Part shown: one piece after another, positions 35,536 to 49,294 of the stretch
Layout of the letters: every line of letters begins with the position of its first letter
Numbering within the stretch: position 1 is the first letter of the stretch
Assembly (NCBI GenBank): GCA_031276865.1
Contig: JAISMF010000093.1
Span: 1-64,000 of the forward strand
From: Deltaproteobacteria bacterium
GTDB taxonomy: Bacteria > Desulfobacterota > Desulfarculia > Adiutricales > Adiutricaceae
DNA length: 64,000 nucleotides
Reading direction: 5' to 3'
The notes under the pieces: generated by a model
Told to the model about the DNA's origin: nothing
What the model saw: the letters and a program-made list of their open reading frames with translations, nothing else
Databases searched by the model: none
Position numbers and translations under genes: made by a program

Positions 35536-35551
35536 TGGCACGGTAGTTGCT
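35536..35551 (+). promoter_or_regulatory. Sigma-54 promoter upstream of flgB
   Basis: TGGCACGGTAGTTGCT matches TGGCACG-N4-TTGCW. Confidence 0.9.
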
Positions 35552-39035: not shown

Positions 39036-39130
39036 AACGCGGGAAAAAAAAGGTATCTCTTTTCCCGCGGGATGGACTTTTTTTCCCTACGGACCCGTAT
39101 ATATTGGCTTTTCGATGGTAATTCCGAATT

Positions 39131-39146
39131 TGGCACAAAAGGTGCT
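39131..39146 (+). promoter_or_regulatory. Sigma-54-like promoter upstream of the GGDEF gene
   Basis: TGGCACAAAAGGTGCT: GG and GC at correct 10-bp spacing. Confidence 0.7.
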
Positions 39147-39200
39147 TTCAGGTTCGCTAGGGAAGAACGGTTCACACGCGCCGTATTCATGGAGGAAACA

Positions 39201-40538
39201 ATGAGAACATCGACGATACTGGTCCTGGACGCCTGGCGAGACAACGCGCCCAAGATAGCCCAGGCCGCGAGGCCCTTTTCCGCGAGGATAATGTGGGCGG
39301 AGAACTATAACGAGGCCAAGAGGCTCATAGCCGAGGCCAGGCCCCAGGTCATTCTCGCGGCGGACGATCTCCCCGGCCTCTCCCGGCCCGAGGAGCTGGT
39401 GGATCTGGTCAACACCTACCGCCTTCCGGCGCAGATCGTGGTCCTGACCAGGAACCCCGACTTCGAAAGGGGCATGCGGATGGTCCTTCACGGCGTCTTC
39501 ATGGTCCTCGAGACGCCCTTTCCGATGGAGAAGCTGCGCGTGGTGTTGAAGAAGATTCTGGACAGCTACGACATCTTCCACAGCATCACCGCGAAGAGCC
39601 CCCTGGACATCGAAAAGGAGCTGGCCATTTACAAGTGCCTGGCCTCCCACGAGGACATCCCGTATCTGGTGGAGACCATCCGCCAGGCCGCCTCCCATCT
39701 CTGCGAGGGGGCGAAAATCGAGGTGGAGCTGGCGCCCGGGCTCTCCGGAGCCGGAGAACGGCCGGCGGCCCAGGATGAGCCCATCATCAGTTTCGAGAGC
39801 CTCAAGCGTCCCGATCCCGGGGTGGAGACCCACAAGTTCTCCTGGAAGGGGGAATCCTTGGGCTCCCTCAACATCACCTTTCCCGATGGGCGCTCCGAAA
39901 CGCCCCCCCTGGATCAGGACACCTTGGACGAGCTGGTCTGGGCGGCCTCGCTGCACCTCTACCAGGCGAAAAGGTACCAAGACGCCCTGCGGCTCGCCTC
40001 CCTGGATCATCTGACCGGGCTTTTAAACCGCCGGGCCTTCTCGGAGAACCTGGCCAGGGAGTTCGCCAAGGCCGAGAGGCACAACACCCCCTTGAGCCTC
40101 CTCATGCTGGACATCGACCACTTCAAGAGCATCAACGACACCTTCGGGCACCAGGCCGGAGACGAGATCCTCAAATGGCTCGCCCGGATGATCAACCAGA
40201 ACATCCGGATGGGGGATCTGGCCTTCAGGATAGGCGGCGAGGAGTTCGCCGTGATTTTGCCCTGGGCCGACGAGGAGCAGGCTAAAATACTCGCCGAACG
40301 GCTCAAGAGCGCCCTCATGGAGGACGGAGGCGTGAAGATCCAATCGCTCACGCGCCCCACCGTCTCCCAGGGTATAGCCACCATGAAGCATTTTCTTATA
40401 AAAACGCCGGAGGATTTGATATACTGGTCCGACCAGGCGATGTACCTTTCCAAAAAGGAGGGACGCAACACCATCCGCCTGCTCACCGATCTGCGGGATA
40501 AGACCAAATTCGAGGATACCAGCTATGTCTTCCAATGA
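39201..40538 (+). CDS. Receiver-like + GGDEF diguanylate cyclase
   Basis: 'DHLTGLLNRRAFSENLAREFAKAERHNTPLSLLMLDIDHFKSINDTFGHQAGDEILKWLA..FRIGGEEFAVILP'. Confidence 0.93.
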   Translation: MRTSTILVLDAWRDNAPKIAQAARPFSARIMWAENYNEAKRLIAEARPQVILAADDLPGLSRPEELVDLVNTYRLPAQIVVLTRNPDFERGMRMVLHGVFMVLETPFPMEKLRVVLKKILDSYDIFHSITAKSPLDIEKELAIYKCLASHEDIPYLVETIRQAASHLCEGAKIEVELAPGLSGAGERPAAQDEPIISFESLKRPDPGVETHKFSWKGESLGSLNITFPDGRSETPPLDQDTLDELVWAASLHLYQAKRYQDALRLASLDHLTGLLNRRAFSENLAREFAKAERHNTPLSLLMLDIDHFKSINDTFGHQAGDEILKWLARMINQNIRMGDLAFRIGGEEFAVILPWADEEQAKILAERLKSALMEDGGVKIQSLTRPTVSQGIATMKHFLIKTPEDLIYWSDQAMYLSKKEGRNTIRLLTDLRDKTKFEDTSYVFQ

Positions 40539-41073
40539 AGAGCGCCGCAAGGGGCTGCGGGCCATGATGCCCACCCAGATGCTGTTCAACGTCCTTGACA
40601 GCCCGGCCGACTATATCCGGGGGCAGAACTCCACCGTCAAGAGGCTGGCGGCCCTCGACGCCGAGCCCACCCCCAATCCCAAGACGGAGTCCCATATCCT
40701 CCTCTCCAGGATCGACCGCAAACTATCCTTAATCTTAAGCATCTTAGCCGAAAGCAGCACCCGCAAGACCTACATGAACCAGGCCATGGTGCAGGATATC
40801 TCGGAGTTCGGCCTCTCCTTCGGTCACTACTCGGACTTCGCCATCGGATCCTATTTGGAGATCGGCTTGGTGCTTCCCTACTCCGAGGCCCGCATGATGG
40901 ACATCGCCGGCCGGGTGGTGCGCAACCTGGGCCAGGACGAGAACACCAGCTTCGAGCGCTACATGTACGGCTTCGAATTCACCGACATCCTCGGATCCGA
41001 CCAAAACGAGATAGTCCAGTGGATCTTCACGAAACAGCGCGAAGAGATAAGAAGGCGGAGGGAGAACGTCTAA
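40525..41073 (+). CDS. PilZ-domain-like protein
   Basis: Follows the GGDEF gene; 'VQDISEFGLSFGHYSDFAIGSYLEIGLVLPYSEARMMDIAGRVVRN..YGFEFTDILGSDQNEIVQWIFTKQREEIRRRRE'. Confidence 0.72.
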   Translation: MSSNEERRKGLRAMMPTQMLFNVLDSPADYIRGQNSTVKRLAALDAEPTPNPKTESHILLSRIDRKLSLILSILAESSTRKTYMNQAMVQDISEFGLSFGHYSDFAIGSYLEIGLVLPYSEARMMDIAGRVVRNLGQDENTSFERYMYGFEFTDILGSDQNEIVQWIFTKQREEIRRRRENV

Positions 41074-41353: not shown

Positions 41354-41381
41354 AAGAGCGGAAGCCCCCGCTCTTTTTTTT
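41354..41381 (+). terminator. Rho-independent terminator
   Basis: AAGAGCGG-AAGCCC-CCGCTCTT followed by T-run. Confidence 0.7.
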
Positions 41382-41992
41382 CAGCCCCGCCCCCCCGAAA
41401 GACGACGGGCGGAGGGACGGAAAAAAAAGGCGCCGGCCGCGGAAATTTTTCCTTTTTTTCACGAAATCCCGTTCTTTTTCATCCGGCGCGTTTTTTTCAC
41501 CACCCCCAAATCCTTCCGGACGATCCCGCGCCGGCCAAGGAAGGCGTCCACGCGCGCGGGCTTCGAAACGGCCCGCCGGGGCGAGGGACGCGTATAGCGG
41601 GGCCTTTCTTGGTCCATGAAAGGCCACGACCGCGTCTTTCCGCCAAATGACGGCCCGCCGCCGCCTTGGGCCGCGCCCGCCGCCTTAAACAATAGTTTCA
41701 CGACGGACGGATAGTCCCCAAAGCCGCGGTCCGGATCAAGACGAAAAGGCCGTTTCGGACGGCGAATCGTTTCCGGTTCCGCCCGGCGCCCCGGGGAAGG
41801 CCCGGACCCGGGACGGGGGCCTCCGGAACAAAAAAGAGTCCCTTAGGGCCCCGCCGCCGTGGACGCGCGCCTTCCCCGGATTTTCACCTTCGCCGCCGAC
41901 CGGACCGGAGGTTTTCCGCTCGTCCGCCCTTCAGCGCGGTTTTCCCCGCGACCCCGCCCGGAGGGACCTTCCCGGGCGGAAGATTTTCCGGA

Positions 41993-42032
41993 GCGGTCCG
42001 GCGCGGTCCGCGACGCTCCGTAACGGTCCGGA
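41993..42032. repeat. 10-bp-phased CGGTCCG boxes (4 units, one degenerate)
   Basis: GCGGTCCGGC GCGGTCCGCG ACGCTCCGTA ACGGTCCGGA. Confidence 0.75.
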
Positions 42033-42035
42033 CCT

Positions 42036-42051
42036 TGGCACGGCAATTGCT
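42036..42051 (+). promoter_or_regulatory. Sigma-54 promoter without an obvious downstream gene
   Basis: TGGCACGGCAATTGCT, perfect TGGCACG-N4-TTGCW. Confidence 0.85.
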
Positions 42052-42061
42052 GTCATATTCG

Positions 42062-42235
42062 TCAAGGTTCCTTCCGCGGGGGCGGATATGTCCGCCCCCT
42101 GGAGGGGGTCTTCCGGGGCTTGGCCCCGGTCCTCCGCGAGCCGGAGTCTTTCAGACGGAAGCCCATGTTCCACGGTCCGGCGCTTTTGGCGGAAGGGCGT
42201 CCCCGGGAGGCGGAAAGTTTCATTTTTTCCGTTTA
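42062..42235 (+). ncRNA. Candidate sigma-54-dependent structured RNA (boundaries approximate)
   Basis: GGGGGCGGA-TATG-TCCGCCCCC (42078-42099) and CCGGGGC-TTG-GCCCCGG (42113-42129) directly downstream of the promoter; no plausible ORF. Confidence 0.35.
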
Positions 42236-42463
42236 GGATATTTTTAGTTCACCAGAACTTCTTAAAAATTTCCTCCCCGGCCCCTCTTCTCCCGGCCCCG
42301 CTTTGGGGCGTCTGAAAGAATCAGCCTTCCAGCCTCTTTCCCCTGGCAGGATTTCCGCTTTGACGGCCGTCCGGTTTTTCCGCTGAAATTACTTCAAAAT
42401 AGGCCAAATATCTTTAATTTACTTAAATTATTGAAACTTTTCGCCTAATAGAGTGGAAAAAAC

Positions 42464-42492
42464 TTGACAAACAGGCCTCCCGACATTATGAT
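42464..42492 (+). promoter_or_regulatory. Sigma-70 promoter of the zinc-ribbon/minor pilin operon
   Basis: TTGACA-N17-TATGAT. Confidence 0.75.
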
Positions 42493-42706: not shown

Positions 42707-43480
42707 ATGTTGCTACACTGTCCCGGCTGCAGAACTAAATTGCGCCTCTCGGACGAGTACCAGAACAAGAAGGAAATTTGGATTAAATGTCCTAAATGCG
42801 GCGAACGCTTCAGGCCCCAGACGGAGGATCTGACCCTGCGACCGAGCGCGAAGCCCGGGGATTCCTGCCCCTTCCCCCAGAGACGGAAGGACGTGGAGGA
42901 CCTCCTGAGCCGCATGGATCTCGGCAAGCTGGATCGGGAGCGCCGGGAGGATGTCGACTTCTCCCTGGACGCGATTCCGGTCATACCGGACTCGCCGCCC
43001 AGGACGCGCGTCTACACGGCCGTGACCGTCTTCTCGGTGGCGCTGGTGCTGGTGGCCCTGGGGCTCATCTTCCACCACTCGGGCGCGGCCGAGGTTCAGC
43101 CGCCTCCGGACGGAACGCCGCCGCCCCTGGATTACGGCCAGGACATGCTTCTTTTCGACATGATGGGTCTCAGGGGGGACATCCTCCGCCTGCGCCACGT
43201 CGACAGGACCATAAACTACCGCGGCCGGGAATCAAGGATCTACAAGTACTTCGTGAGCAACCTGGCCCCGGACCTCTGCCAGGACATAACGAACCTACAC
43301 CTGTGGTCGCCTCGGACCGCGGAGGGCTTCAAAATGGTGGCCACCTGCCTGGACGCCAAAAAAGAGGCGGCGACTTTGGTGGTGAACTGGGACGTCGGGA
43401 CGGCCACCATAAAGGTCGCCGGGCGGCCCTTGGAAGTGGATCTGCCGCTGCCCCGTCCGGGCCGGGCGGGCGGCGGGTGA
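42707..43480 (+). CDS. MJ0042-type zinc-ribbon membrane protein
   Basis: MLLHCPGCRTKLRLSDEYQNKKEIWIKCPKCGERFRPQ, one TM helix. Confidence 0.85.
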   Translation: MLLHCPGCRTKLRLSDEYQNKKEIWIKCPKCGERFRPQTEDLTLRPSAKPGDSCPFPQRRKDVEDLLSRMDLGKLDRERREDVDFSLDAIPVIPDSPPRTRVYTAVTVFSVALVLVALGLIFHHSGAAEVQPPPDGTPPPLDYGQDMLLFDMMGLRGDILRLRHVDRTINYRGRESRIYKYFVSNLAPDLCQDITNLHLWSPRTAEGFKMVATCLDAKKEAATLVVNWDVGTATIKVAGRPLEVDLPLPRPGRAGGG

Positions 43481-43548
43481 GGCTGTTTCCAGCCGCCCGG
43501 GGGATTTCGTCACACCCCTTTCCGCCCCTTCCCGCCCGCCTTTTTTCG

Positions 43549-44739
43549 ATGATTTTACCGGAACTTTTCATCCCTTCGGCTCCGGCGCCTCAGACAGCAA
43601 GGATTAAAACCGTGAAACCAACCGCCTGGGACATTTTTAAATCGCGAACGATTGTTTCCGCCCCGAAGAGGACCCGCGGCTGCGAAAGCGGGCTCACCCT
43701 GGTGGAACTCCTGGTCGTCCTGGTCATCGCCCTCATCGTTTCCGGAGTGGCCTTTTCCGTCTACCGGGTGAACGCCAGCTACTATTACAAAGAGGACGCC
43801 TACCTCCAGCTGTACCAGAACCTCAGAGTCGCGCTCTACACCGTGTCCCGGGACGTGAGGATGGCGGGAAACGGCTTTTCGGTCCTTAACACCGGCAACA
43901 AGCGCATAGACGTCTTCTCCCCCACCCGGGAGACTTTGACGGGGATCTCGCCTCCCACCGCCACCAACGTCACGCCGGCCTTATTCTCCCACGCCGACGC
44001 CGAGCCCGGAAAGACCGGGGCGAGGGGCATCTTCGGCGTCGACGGGGGCGATAACGACCCCGATTCGCTCACCATATTCCGGGCGGAGCTGGAAACGGGA
44101 AGCTATCTGGGACATTTGGACGGAGACCCCTCGGGGAACGTCGTCACCATAGACAAAGACGTGGACCCCAAGGCTCTGCTTCCCGGCGACATCATCGCCC
44201 TGTCCAACGGCGAAAGGGCCATGGTTCTGGAGGTGGACCCCTCCTACACCCCGGGCGAGAGAGACATTCCCATTAAAACCGGCGGACGCTTCACCCCCGT
44301 CACTCTGCCCACCGACTTCCCCTATAACGGAGCCTCCCTCTACAATTTCCGCGACATAGTCTTCGTGACCTACTACGTGGATCAGGGCTCCAACACCCTC
44401 ATGGCCGATTATCACGACAACAGCCGGACGCTCTACGACGACGCGGCCAGGAAGTCCGTGGTCGTCTCCGGAAACATCGAGGATCTGGAGGTCTATTACT
44501 TCTTCTCGAACAACTCCATCGATATGACCACGGTGAGCTCCGATCCGGCCATCAGCTCCGCCCATTTAGACGGCGAGGACGTGAACGCCGTGGCCATCGG
44601 CATGACGGCCATCGCCCCCTACGGGGAAGGCGCCAACAACAAGGTCAGACCCGCCCTCTTCAACCGCCACGCGGGCGTCGTCAAGGACAACCGCCAACGC
44701 AGCACGCTGGTGCAGACCATAAACTTGAGGAACTATTAA
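43549..44739 (+). CDS. PilW-like minor pilin / type IV pilus assembly protein
   Basis: Prepilin motif 'CESGLTLVELLVVLVIALIVSGVAFSVYRV', PilW-like length. Confidence 0.82.
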   Translation: MILPELFIPSAPAPQTARIKTVKPTAWDIFKSRTIVSAPKRTRGCESGLTLVELLVVLVIALIVSGVAFSVYRVNASYYYKEDAYLQLYQNLRVALYTVSRDVRMAGNGFSVLNTGNKRIDVFSPTRETLTGISPPTATNVTPALFSHADAEPGKTGARGIFGVDGGDNDPDSLTIFRAELETGSYLGHLDGDPSGNVVTIDKDVDPKALLPGDIIALSNGERAMVLEVDPSYTPGERDIPIKTGGRFTPVTLPTDFPYNGASLYNFRDIVFVTYYVDQGSNTLMADYHDNSRTLYDDAARKSVVVSGNIEDLEVYYFFSNNSIDMTTVSSDPAISSAHLDGEDVNAVAIGMTAIAPYGEGANNKVRPALFNRHAGVVKDNRQRSTLVQTINLRNY

Positions 44740-45329
44740 TGAGCCGCCCTGACAAACGGACTTCCGGCGCGGCCAAGGGGAATATCCTTAAGGGATTCAC
44801 CCTCTTGGAGCTGATCGTGGTCATATCCATCCTGGGCATTTTGGCCGTGGTGGCCTACCCGGCTATGAGCCGCTTCGTTCCCAACCAGAAGGTCTCAAAC
44901 GAGGCCAAGAGGGTGGAGAGCTTTCTGCAAAAGGCCAGGGTCAACGCCTCCACCAAACAGAGGCCCATAAGGGTGGTGATAAACTGCGTCGCCAGCCCCT
45001 GCTGGATCGAGTCCCAAAAGGCGGTCTACAACGGGGCGAGCGTGGACTCCTGGACGCCCGAGGGCGACAGGCGCTACTTCAACACCATGGTGTCGTTGGT
45101 CAACAGCACCACCACCGGCGGACGCGACGGGGCGCGCGAGGTGCCCGGAGTGCGCTACGCCATCTACATGCCGGACGGCCGCGTCTACTCGGATCCCCGG
45201 CCTTTCGACATCTTCCTCTTCTCCAACCAGGTGGATTCCGCCGTCAACCCCAAGGAGGGCTGGCGGATCTCCGTCACCAAGGATTCCGGAAGGGTCGCCA
45301 CCAAACGGACCGAGCTCACCACCAGCTGA
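44739..45329 (+). CDS. GspH/FimT family pseudopilin
   Basis: KGFTLLELIVVISILGILAVVAYPAMSRFVPNQKVSNEAKRVESFLQKARVNAST. Confidence 0.88.
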   Translation: MSRPDKRTSGAAKGNILKGFTLLELIVVISILGILAVVAYPAMSRFVPNQKVSNEAKRVESFLQKARVNASTKQRPIRVVINCVASPCWIESQKAVYNGASVDSWTPEGDRRYFNTMVSLVNSTTTGGRDGAREVPGVRYAIYMPDGRVYSDPRPFDIFLFSNQVDSAVNPKEGWRISVTKDSGRVATKRTELTTS

Positions 45330-45361: not shown

Positions 45362-45850
45362 ATGCCTCTTCATTCCGACATAGGGCTTAAACCCCTCCCA
45401 CCCGGTCCGGGCGCCGTCAAACCCGGGTTCACCCTGGTGGAGGTCATCATAACCGTGCTCATCATCTCCATCGGCTGCCTGGCGGCCATGGTCATGCAGA
45501 CCAACGCCTTGAAGGGGAACACCCTGGCCGACAACTTGACCGTCGCCACCTTCCTGGCCGAATCGGAAGCGGAACGATTGGACTCGCTAAGCTTCGAGCA
45601 GCTGACCGCGGAGGTGGACGACGCGGCCGTCACCGACGGCAAGAAGGTGAAATACCTTAACCGCCAGTTCTTGAAGTGCCCCAACGACACCCCCGCGGAC
45701 TGCCCCGATTACCTGTACAAGATGGAGACAAGCTACTTTAAGAACTTCCCCACCAACTGGTCGCATCAGGTGGAGATAAAGGTGGACTGGCAAGACAACG
45801 TGGGCGCCCACGAAGTGGTCTACAGCAGCGTGTTCACGGATCTGCTCTGA
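45362..45850 (+). CDS. PilV-like minor pilin
   Basis: KPGFTLVEVIITVLIISIGCLAAMVMQTNALKGNTLADNLTVATFLAESEAERL. Confidence 0.85.
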   Translation: MPLHSDIGLKPLPPGPGAVKPGFTLVEVIITVLIISIGCLAAMVMQTNALKGNTLADNLTVATFLAESEAERLDSLSFEQLTAEVDDAAVTDGKKVKYLNRQFLKCPNDTPADCPDYLYKMETSYFKNFPTNWSHQVEIKVDWQDNVGAHEVVYSSVFTDLL

Positions 45851-45884: not shown

Positions 45885-46541
45885 ATGATGAAAACACACA
45901 GCGTGAAATATTTGGAACCCGCCCCGTCTCGGGGGAACAGAAGCGGCATGATCCTGGCCTTCGCTCTGGTCATCCTCCTTTTAATGAGCCTCATGGGGAT
46001 AATAATCCTCTCCAGCACCCAGACCGAACTTAAGATCACCTCGAATTCGCGTCTGGGCCGCGACGCCTTCAACTCGGCGGACTCCTGCGCCAGGATAGCC
46101 ACCTACCTGACCCTGGTCAAGCTCCAGAATAAATCCGCCTCCTGGAGGGACGTCCTCACGACTCTCCCCGATCCGAGCCCGCGGTTTCCTTTGGAAGTGG
46201 AGGCCACGTCCAGGTTTGACGACGATTTGGAAATGGGCATCAACAATTTCGACTACGCCGCCCGCTATCTCCAAACCGGCCTGGGATCGGAACCGGCGGA
46301 TCCCCATCTCATCTTCAAGATCAACGGCAAAACCGTGGCCACGGCCGTGGTGTCTTTGGAGACTAAAAATCTTATACCGCCCGGCGCCTCCATCGATGGG
46401 GGGGAACCCCATGATTCCAGCGGAGGGTCGAGCCTCGAAGTGGGAATCATCGTGTCGGTCACCGGACGCACCCCCACCGTCACCGCGTCGGGGGACGAAC
46501 CGGCCTCGGTCGTGACCCTCATGTACCGCCACAAAATATAA
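45885..46541 (+). CDS. PilX-like type IV pilus assembly protein
   Basis: NRSGMILAFALVILLLMSLMGIIILSSTQTELKITSNSRLGRDAFNSADSCARI. Confidence 0.82.
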   Translation: MMKTHSVKYLEPAPSRGNRSGMILAFALVILLLMSLMGIIILSSTQTELKITSNSRLGRDAFNSADSCARIATYLTLVKLQNKSASWRDVLTTLPDPSPRFPLEVEATSRFDDDLEMGINNFDYAARYLQTGLGSEPADPHLIFKINGKTVATAVVSLETKNLIPPGASIDGGEPHDSSGGSSLEVGIIVSVTGRTPTVTASGDEPASVVTLMYRHKI

Positions 46542-47038: not shown

Positions 47039-49294
47039 TCAGAGCTTGTTTTTTTTGAGAAAAACCTTGAGCTCCCTGGCCTTCTTCTCGTCGTTTTTTT
47101 TAGCGATCAACAGCGACAGGGCGGCGGCCGCCCTCCGGAGGGATTTTTTCAAAAGCTTGGGGTCGCAGACCCGGGGAATGGTCTTTAAGAGATCCAGCGC
47201 CTTTTCGGGCTTTTCCCGCTTGATGAGCCCGCGCATGAGCTTGATTCCGGCCTTCCCGCGGTAGAGATCCACCTCTTTCACCGATTTCAAGGCGGAAAGG
47301 GAGTCGTAGACCTCCCTGGCCTCCCTGAGGTGCCCCTTGGCGGCGAAGTCGGCCACTATCCAGGCGCCGGTTTTAGCCTTGCTGACGGCGGCCCCCCGGG
47401 AATCCCCCGCCGCCGAAATGGCGTGGTAGAGGGCCAAAGTCTCCTTCACCCGGCCGGCCTTGGACAGGCCCTCGGCTAAAAAGAAGCCTAAATGTCCCGC
47501 CTCCCGCGCCTCCTTGGCGCTCTTGGCCGGATCCGGAAGCTTCGCGAAAAGGGAGAGGGCCTTTCCCCAGAGCTTGTGTTCCAGAAAACCCTTGAGCGCC
47601 TCCCGGGCGATCTTGTAGAGCTTCGCCCGGTGCCGGTTTTTTTTCGCGATCTCCCGCCTGAGCTTCTCGTAGACCTTCTCCATGCGGGAAAGCTTGTTCT
47701 CCCGCCGAAGGCTCCGGACGAGTTCGCCGGCGAGTTCGACCCACTCCCCGCTCAGCCTGCCTTTCAGGAAAAACCCGGCCCGGGTGAAAAATATCCGCTC
47801 GGCGGCTTCCAGGGCGCCATCCTCGATTAAGGACTCGAGCACCCGGGTTTCGGCCTCGGCTAAGGGAAGGGGATAGTCATCCTCCGACATGGGAAGCGAG
47901 GCGGTTAAGCCGGCGTAGATTTCCAAAGCGTCCTCGATCTGATCGGATTCGCATTTGGCGCAGAGGAGGGCCAAGGTCATGTCGAGGTAAAGCTCGGCGA
48001 AGCCGGGGCTTTCCCTTTCGGGGTGAAAGGATTCGTAGAAGTTCTCCACCACGTCGTAGAGGCCGTCCTCCAAACAGACGCTCATCTCGGCGAACATGCT
48101 CCGGGCGAAGTCCAGGGCCTCTTTTTCGGAGGCCGCCAGGGCGTACATGATCTTGTAGACTTCCTCGCCTTTTTTGGGCTTCCCCTCCTCGGCGGAGTTC
48201 AAAAGGAAGATCAAGGCGGCGTTGTACAGAGAGGAGTAAGCCGCGCCGCGGACCCCGACCCGGGGAAGCTCCGTGAAGATCTTCCAGGCCTTCTCCGTCA
48301 TTTCGCGCTCCAAGAGTTTGTCCATGATCAAGGCGGCGCTTTTGACGACCACGGGATTGAAGAGCCGGGGGTTTCCAAGCCCGGGTCCGCGGAGGAAATC
48401 GTAGAAGCCCACGGCCTCCACCGCGTCGTCCTCCTTCAGGACCTCCCGCGCGAAGTCGAGGGCGGCTTCGGAGAGGATCCTCGCCTCCGCGGGCGTCTTC
48501 TTTTTTTCGGACAGAATGGAGGTTAGATAAAGGTAGCCGTCATGGCCGCCCTCGCCGGAGAAGGGCCCCAAGAGGCTGAAAGCGGAAAGGTAGCGGTGGC
48601 GGGCGCATTCGGGAGGCCCGAAAACATCCTCCCTTTTCAGGAGCGCCAAAGCCTCGTCCCTTTCGCCGTTATTTTTCAGAACCCGCAAGTACTCGTAGGC
48701 CCCGGCGGCCATATGGCGGTTGACGGAACGCGGCAAAAACAATTGCCTGGCGGCCCGGTTCCGGCTTTTTTCCATCATGGCGAAGACGGCGCCGGAGAGT
48801 TTTCCGCCTCCGGAATCCTTCAGGGAGGATAGAAGCTCCGCGCCGGTTTGGAGGAAGGCCTCCTCCCGCATCACTTTGCCGGTGAATTCCCCGTACTCCC
48901 CGTAGGTGGAAAGAAGCTCCTCGAAACGGCGGCAGTAGGCCAGATCCTTTAAAATCTTGTCCGCGGCCTTGATGAAGACGTCGGGAAAAAGCGAGAAGGG
49001 AAGTTTTTTCAGATCCCGGTATATTTCCAAAGCGAGCTCGATGTCGCCCGCGTCCGAGGCCTGGGAGACGGCGGAGAGGTAGCATTCCCCCATAACCGCG
49101 CGTTTTTCTATTTTCAGCCACTGCCAATCGACCCGGCTTAGATCCGCCGCGAGGCCTTTAAGCCTCTCCAAGCGGGCGTCCTGACCCTCCGCCTTCCTGA
49201 AGGAGGCCCGCGGGCCGTTTAGCTCCTCCAATATCATGTCGATCCTCCTCCAGCCGTCCGGCGGAAAAAAGATCTTCGGGGGTTCCTTTGGCAT
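47039..49294 (-). CDS. Large alpha-helical repeat (TPR/PPR-like) protein, 751 aa
   Basis: Recurrent 'ALEIYRDLKKLP', 'KAWKIFTELPRV', 'ALEIYAGLTASLP', 'ALSLFAKLPD', 'TLALYHAISAAG', 'AREVYDSLSALKS', 'ALDLLKTIPRV'. Confidence 0.75.
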   Translation of the reverse strand: MPKEPPKIFFPPDGWRRIDMILEELNGPRASFRKAEGQDARLERLKGLAADLSRVDWQWLKIEKRAVMGECYLSAVSQASDAGDIELALEIYRDLKKLPFSLFPDVFIKAADKILKDLAYCRRFEELLSTYGEYGEFTGKVMREEAFLQTGAELLSSLKDSGGGKLSGAVFAMMEKSRNRAARQLFLPRSVNRHMAAGAYEYLRVLKNNGERDEALALLKREDVFGPPECARHRYLSAFSLLGPFSGEGGHDGYLYLTSILSEKKKTPAEARILSEAALDFAREVLKEDDAVEAVGFYDFLRGPGLGNPRLFNPVVVKSAALIMDKLLEREMTEKAWKIFTELPRVGVRGAAYSSLYNAALIFLLNSAEEGKPKKGEEVYKIMYALAASEKEALDFARSMFAEMSVCLEDGLYDVVENFYESFHPERESPGFAELYLDMTLALLCAKCESDQIEDALEIYAGLTASLPMSEDDYPLPLAEAETRVLESLIEDGALEAAERIFFTRAGFFLKGRLSGEWVELAGELVRSLRRENKLSRMEKVYEKLRREIAKKNRHRAKLYKIAREALKGFLEHKLWGKALSLFAKLPDPAKSAKEAREAGHLGFFLAEGLSKAGRVKETLALYHAISAAGDSRGAAVSKAKTGAWIVADFAAKGHLREAREVYDSLSALKSVKEVDLYRGKAGIKLMRGLIKREKPEKALDLLKTIPRVCDPKLLKKSLRRAAAALSLLIAKKNDEKKARELKVFLKKNKL

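Follow-up and report, generated by a model that had tools for sequence, protein, structure and literature searches.

A 64,000-nucleotide stretch of DNA from a member of the Adiutricaceae (the window) carries a sigma-54-type promoter element in a 1.6-kb intergenic region, and the question raised by this locus is what such a promoter transcribes. A first-pass annotation had described an orphan promoter driving a structured, apparently non-coding RNA. The Adiutricaceae (Desulfobacterota) are a family described from termite guts (PMC9137090), and the host group probably consists of uncultured termite-gut bacteria. The closest named records encoding the zinc-ribbon gene downstream of the element are metagenome-assembled genomes labelled 'Deltaproteobacteria bacterium'.

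The sigma-54 element and its gene neighbourhood

The element lies between a pair of genes with GGDEF and PilZ domains and a group of minor pilin genes, all on the same strand:

39072..40538, + strand: GGDEF-domain (diguanylate cyclase) gene, upstream neighbour (PF00990, E=6.7e-47), with synteny in relatives
40525..41073, + strand: PilZ-domain gene, upstream neighbour (PF07238)
41354..41385, + strand: hairpin and T-run resembling an intrinsic terminator, 280 nt past the PilZ gene
41987..42032, + strand: 10-bp tandem array of CGGTCCG units (Tandem Repeats Finder: period 10, 4.6 copies)
42036..42051, + strand: sigma-54 -24/-12 promoter element TGGCACG-GCAA-TTGCT (TGGCACGGCAATTGCT), predicted start at ~42062
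42464..42492, + strand: sigma-70-type promoter, TTGACA-N17-TATGAT
42707..43480, + strand: zinc-ribbon membrane protein gene, first gene of the operon (PF13717), with orthologues in relatives
43480..44739, + strand: PilW-like minor pilin gene with a prepilin N-methylation motif, start codon uncertain
44739..45329, + strand: FimT/GspH-like minor pilin gene
45362..45850, + strand: PilV-like minor pilin gene (TIGR02523, below its cut-off)
45885..46541, + strand: PilX-like minor pilin gene (PF14341)

The sequence at 42036-42051 matches TGGCACG-N4-TTGCT perfectly, as annotated, with the GG of the -24 box and the GC of the -12 box at the correct spacing in a near-consensus context. Nine perfect sites of this pattern occur in the 4.0-Mb genome against none for a reversed control pattern, and the promoter score at 42036 was matched in 0 of 500 dinucleotide shuffles of the 1.5 kb upstream of the gene. 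The genome (G000) also encodes what a sigma-54 promoter needs, namely rpoN, which is present in 26 of the 27 genomes searched as well, and activator ATPases, with 12 strong Sigma54_activat matches. Such a promoter is further defined by an RpoN-dependent start about 12 nt past the -12 box. The similar element reported for flgB was found at 35536; as to the flagellar co-regulation proposed from it, the likeness of the two sites is just the shared sigma-54 consensus.

Other sigma-54 elements of the same genome have features of their own. At L040 (G000:C101:4567-4582 and the following bases) a perfect element is directly followed by a long CT dinucleotide run (TTGCTCTCTCTC...), possibly a slippage-prone, phase-variable start region before the gene of a predicted exported protein, and L039 carries a short version of this run. 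The genes of two DnaJ-like paralogues (L036 and L037, G000:C65:14825 and 17574), separated by about 2.7 kb, have almost identical perfect sigma-54 promoters, each ~56 nt upstream of the start codon.

The order of the genes that follow (zinc-ribbon, then N_methyl, PilV-like and PilX_N) places pilin genes downstream of the promoter, as would be expected of a pilin operon of the PilR/RpoN type. The operon has the TTGACA-N17-TATGAT promoter of its own that had been annotated for gene 42707, and a TTGAC-type -35 box is found 181-256 nt before the gene in eight of the nine relatives' loci that reach it, L066 having a weaker TTGCC. Beyond the operon, a gene at 47039-49294 on the minus strand encodes a protein of 751 aa that matches PPR repeat families weakly, PF13041 being just over its cut-off; PPR repeats are uncommon in bacteria. 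On the upstream side, a near-symmetric T8...A8 inverted repeat with GC-rich arms lies 3' of the PilZ gene (41373-41429) and is possibly a two-way terminator; together with the sequence at 41354-41380 it may end the PilZ transcript.

The 10-bp units beside the promoter form a real tandem repeat, with 22 of 30 matches at lag 10, whereas 400 shuffles averaged 15.7 and never exceeded 20. The first-pass annotation had proposed that an unknown factor binds these phased units next to the -24 box, and their statistical reality and their position adjoining the promoter speak for such a factor. However, the array is absent from all relatives that keep the promoter, the exact paired CGGTCCG motif occurs nowhere else in the genome, and a motif sampler run on the upstream regions of eight loci recovered no shared motif clearly above shuffled sequence. 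The array also abuts the region covered by the polymerase, an unusual place for a sigma-54 enhancer site. A factor acting through the units is thus very improbable, and the array is probably a local duplication confined to this genome.

Conservation of the element and of a downstream box

A whole-region DNA similarity search among 40 relatives matched only the genome itself, and conservation was therefore sought through gene synteny. Orthologues of the zinc-ribbon protein were found in nine other family genomes (50-62% identity), and in the four genomes that have the PilZ and zinc-ribbon genes as neighbours on one stretch, 1.6-2.7 kb separates the two. A sigma-54 element is present in all eight orthologous loci with enough upstream DNA, and in a ninth, G008, whose contig ends 260 nt past the box described below, before the pilin gene, and which has a PilZ gene upstream (81% identical). 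Where the contig reaches the zinc-ribbon gene, the element lies 482-715 nt before it. Its score alone is significant in seven loci (shuffle P between 0 and 0.024); in one it is only marginal (0.08), but position and the linked box agree in that locus as well. The nine loci come from draft genomes, five of them from genus g7 and the rest from g1, g4 and g8, so that they amount in effect to about four independent lineages. The position-specific conservation in nine genomes bears out the annotation of a functional sigma-54 promoter, which is well supported by these comparisons. Wherever the sequence extends to the next gene, the same zinc-ribbon/minor-pilin operon follows; the label 'orphan' is accordingly dropped, and a long leader running into 42707, which the first-pass annotation had named as the alternative that would overturn its own proposal, becomes the leading reading.

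The comparison also revealed a second conserved element, which lies downstream of the promoter:

42245..42262, + strand: conserved 18-bp box TAGTTCACCAGAACTTCT (family consensus CGGTNNACCAAAACTTCA), 210 nt past the -24 element

The box is found downstream of the element in every one of the nine loci, and a Gibbs motif sampler run on the downstream regions recovered it blind, at 20-23 bits compared with 13-15 for shuffled sequence. When three congeneric genomes are aligned, identity rises from 0.25 upstream of the element to 0.80 within it, falls to 0.42 on the way to the box, and reaches 0.90 in the box itself and 0.77 over the sigma-70 region, giving three sharp peaks against a poorly conserved background. 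Among 64 genomes of the class, a combined promoter and box pattern occurred in eight family genomes, once in each and always at the pilin locus, with no match for the reversed control and one probable chance match outside the family; the pattern had been written from seven of these eight genomes, G008 being the new one. The closest relative, G001, lacks both element and box in the 443 nt available before the gene and in the 1300 nt after PilZ, two parts separated by an assembly gap. More distant zinc-ribbon/pilin operons in another genus (L013 in G013, L014 in G023) are also preceded by good sigma-54 elements, located at -160 and -680 and at -315, and the box is absent there.

The module of promoter and box travels with the pilin operon. 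A link to PilZ was rejected, since in G004 the PilZ gene is 4.4 kb away from the module and no module was found within up to 1.5 kb behind the readable PilZ genes of g3, g6, g9, g10 and g11. With 74-89% identity in most of the family's genomes, and 54-59% in one genus, conservation of the short PilZ protein itself is unusually high compared with the 50-62% of the zinc-ribbon protein. A role of the box as a general operator was likewise rejected: close matches to it in the genus with most members amount to exactly one, at the pilin locus, in five of six genomes and to zero in the sixth (G014) at the same stringency, and no regulon was found. A search around the genome's remaining sigma-54 promoters gave no convincing box, the two scores of 16 being more than 1 kb away. 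To our knowledge, the box matches no known site.

The distances from the -24 element to the box are 189, 190, 204, 204, 205, 205, 206 and 210 nt, with a single locus at 336. This constant geometry suggests that promoter and box work together, either as polymerase and activator site or as the start and an element of one RNA. The distances fall on integral as well as half-integral helical turns and thus do not suggest strict phasing on DNA. The box is partially symmetric, with a core GGTNNACC and two free central bases; its resemblance to a dimer site tips the balance slightly to a role as DNA rather than RNA, and the box may be a downstream activator site. A core typical of dimer sites would also suit an operator of the sigma-70-type promoter, upstream of which the box always lies, with the sigma-54 promoter as a separate, functionally untied input. 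The distance from box to -35, however, varies from 62 to 218 nt while that from the -24 element is nearly fixed, and promoter and box occur together once per genome in the class-wide search, which makes this arrangement improbable.

Folding and coding potential of the predicted transcript

Two hairpins had been annotated downstream of the promoter, and both were located as described:

42078..42099, + strand: 9-bp hairpin GGGGGCGGA-TATG-TCCGCCCCC near the predicted transcript start, sequence not conserved
42113..42129, + strand: 7-bp hairpin CCGGGGC-TTG-GCCCCGG, outside the minimum-energy fold and not conserved

The two do not simply stand side by side, as the minimum-energy fold reshapes both: the first extends into a longer stem and long-range pairs replace the second. 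Folding energies relative to shuffled sequence give z = -5.4 for positions +1 to +70 and -2.7 for 42060-42250. A scan of the nine loci shows one clear energy dip, in the first ~70 nt past the promoter, which is the sole clear negative peak between -295 and +325 (combined Z -4.4); a second, smaller dip at +345 derives mostly from two loci. Without G000 the combined Z near the start drops to -2.9, which with about 35 windows scanned is suggestive rather than strong. With the dip recurring, a degree of folding near the start seems to be favoured even as the sequence itself changes freely, and the exact hairpin sequences were not found in relatives. The expectation that promoter and hairpins would be conserved together thus held for the promoter and failed for the hairpin sequences. 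A consensus RNA structure was unsupported by alignments of nine and of six sequences, with zero consensus pairs in the nine and an unfavourable covariation term in the six, and Rfam, searched at two thresholds, gave no match at gathering score in the window and only chance-level matches in the intergenic region. Of the structured transcript proposed at first, the excess structure near the predicted start therefore stands, and neither covariation nor a known family accompanies it.

The statement that no credible ORF follows the promoter was upheld, since no frame through the predicted transcribed region stays open in relatives. A 75-codon frame in this genome spans the box (GTT CAC CAG AAC TTC); it is broken or startless in several relatives, and a small protein was rejected on this basis. 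The predicted leader of this genome has only a weak terminator-like site at 42208-42234, before the box, and no conserved terminator was found after the box, the other loci being judged by eye.

These results bear on the main rival to an operon leader, a separate sigma-54-dependent small RNA of ~200 nt, in which a hairpin at the 5' end and a variable middle part would be followed, close to the 3' end, by the box as a region exposed for pairing. Such an RNA would act on other mRNAs, perhaps those of pilus genes, and would lie ahead of the pilin operon by linkage only. The nearly fixed length from start to box, the excess structure directly past the predicted start, the sigma-70-type promoter serving the operon separately and the lack of a conserved ORF all fit such an RNA. 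Yet neither covarying structure nor a conserved terminator, the marks of a separate small RNA, was found, Rfam gave no match, and the same operon always adjoins, so that we consider it unlikely, though tentatively worth retaining. The apparent sigma-54 promoter of Pxr in Myxococcus xanthus, another former deltaproteobacterium, drives a structured non-coding RNA of 108 nt with conserved stem-loops, encoded beside an activator gene (PMC5568312). A Pxr-like small RNA at the pilin locus is possible; in contrast to Pxr, the locus lacks covariation and a conserved terminator and has a pilin operon downstream. It is doubtful, if conceivable, that the family possesses an undescribed sigma-54-transcribed regulatory RNA of ~200 nt, confined to it, with a hairpin near the 5' end that each lineage has rebuilt and, near the 3' end, a single conserved box (GGUNNACCAAAACUUCA); this RNA would control type IV pili in trans or within the leader.

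A proposed distal promoter for the minor-pilin operon

Judged from sequence comparison, the element at 42036-42051 is, somewhat more probably than not, a distal, regulated sigma-54 promoter that gives the zinc-ribbon/minor-pilin operon a long leader. This promoter would provide regulated transcription of the operon from 42707 and the sigma-70-type promoter at 42464 its basal expression. RNA starting at ~42062 would include the box and continue into the operon, whose leader would then measure ~645 nt, and no conserved terminator or ORF was found between promoter and operon. The box would bind a sigma-54 activator or a partner protein, acting from ~+180, and the hairpin near the start would stabilise the long leader. 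Against a distal promoter, a leader of ~645 nt is long, the operon has its own sigma-70-type promoter and can do without a distal one, and G001 is without element or box in the available parts of its locus.

Downstream activator sites have precedents in flagellar sigma-54 promoters of the FleQ/FlrC type, in which activators bind 3' of the start. The locus shares with these a conserved site downstream of the sigma-54 start, and no common upstream site was found in the eight loci compared; unlike in these promoters, the box is farther off (~+180) and its binding protein is only putative. Control of pilin genes by sigma-54 is established in related groups, for example for pilA of Geobacter sulfurreducens, whose promoter is RpoN-dependent and activated by PilR (PMC2725144), and broad links connect sigma-54 with pili and flagella (PMC3162934). 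As in Geobacter, a related member of the former Deltaproteobacteria, a -24/-12 promoter precedes type IV pilin genes, and both pili and flagella would be under RpoN. The locus differs from Geobacter pilA in its minor-pilin operon headed by a zinc-ribbon gene, the longer distance from promoter to gene, the second, sigma-70-type promoter, the conserved downstream box and the lack of an activator gene among the neighbours found by comparison.

The striking features of the locus, its phased repeats and perfect hairpins, are the ones that are not conserved, and the conserved 18-bp box had been missed. The comparison defines this box as an element whose spacing from the sigma-54 promoter upstream of it is nearly constant. 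Should it be an activator site, such a conserved enhancer arrangement, downstream of the start, would be unusual; should it function as RNA, it would represent a new RNA family. For these uncultured, probably termite-gut bacteria, the locus offers a testable link between sigma-54 and pilus genes.
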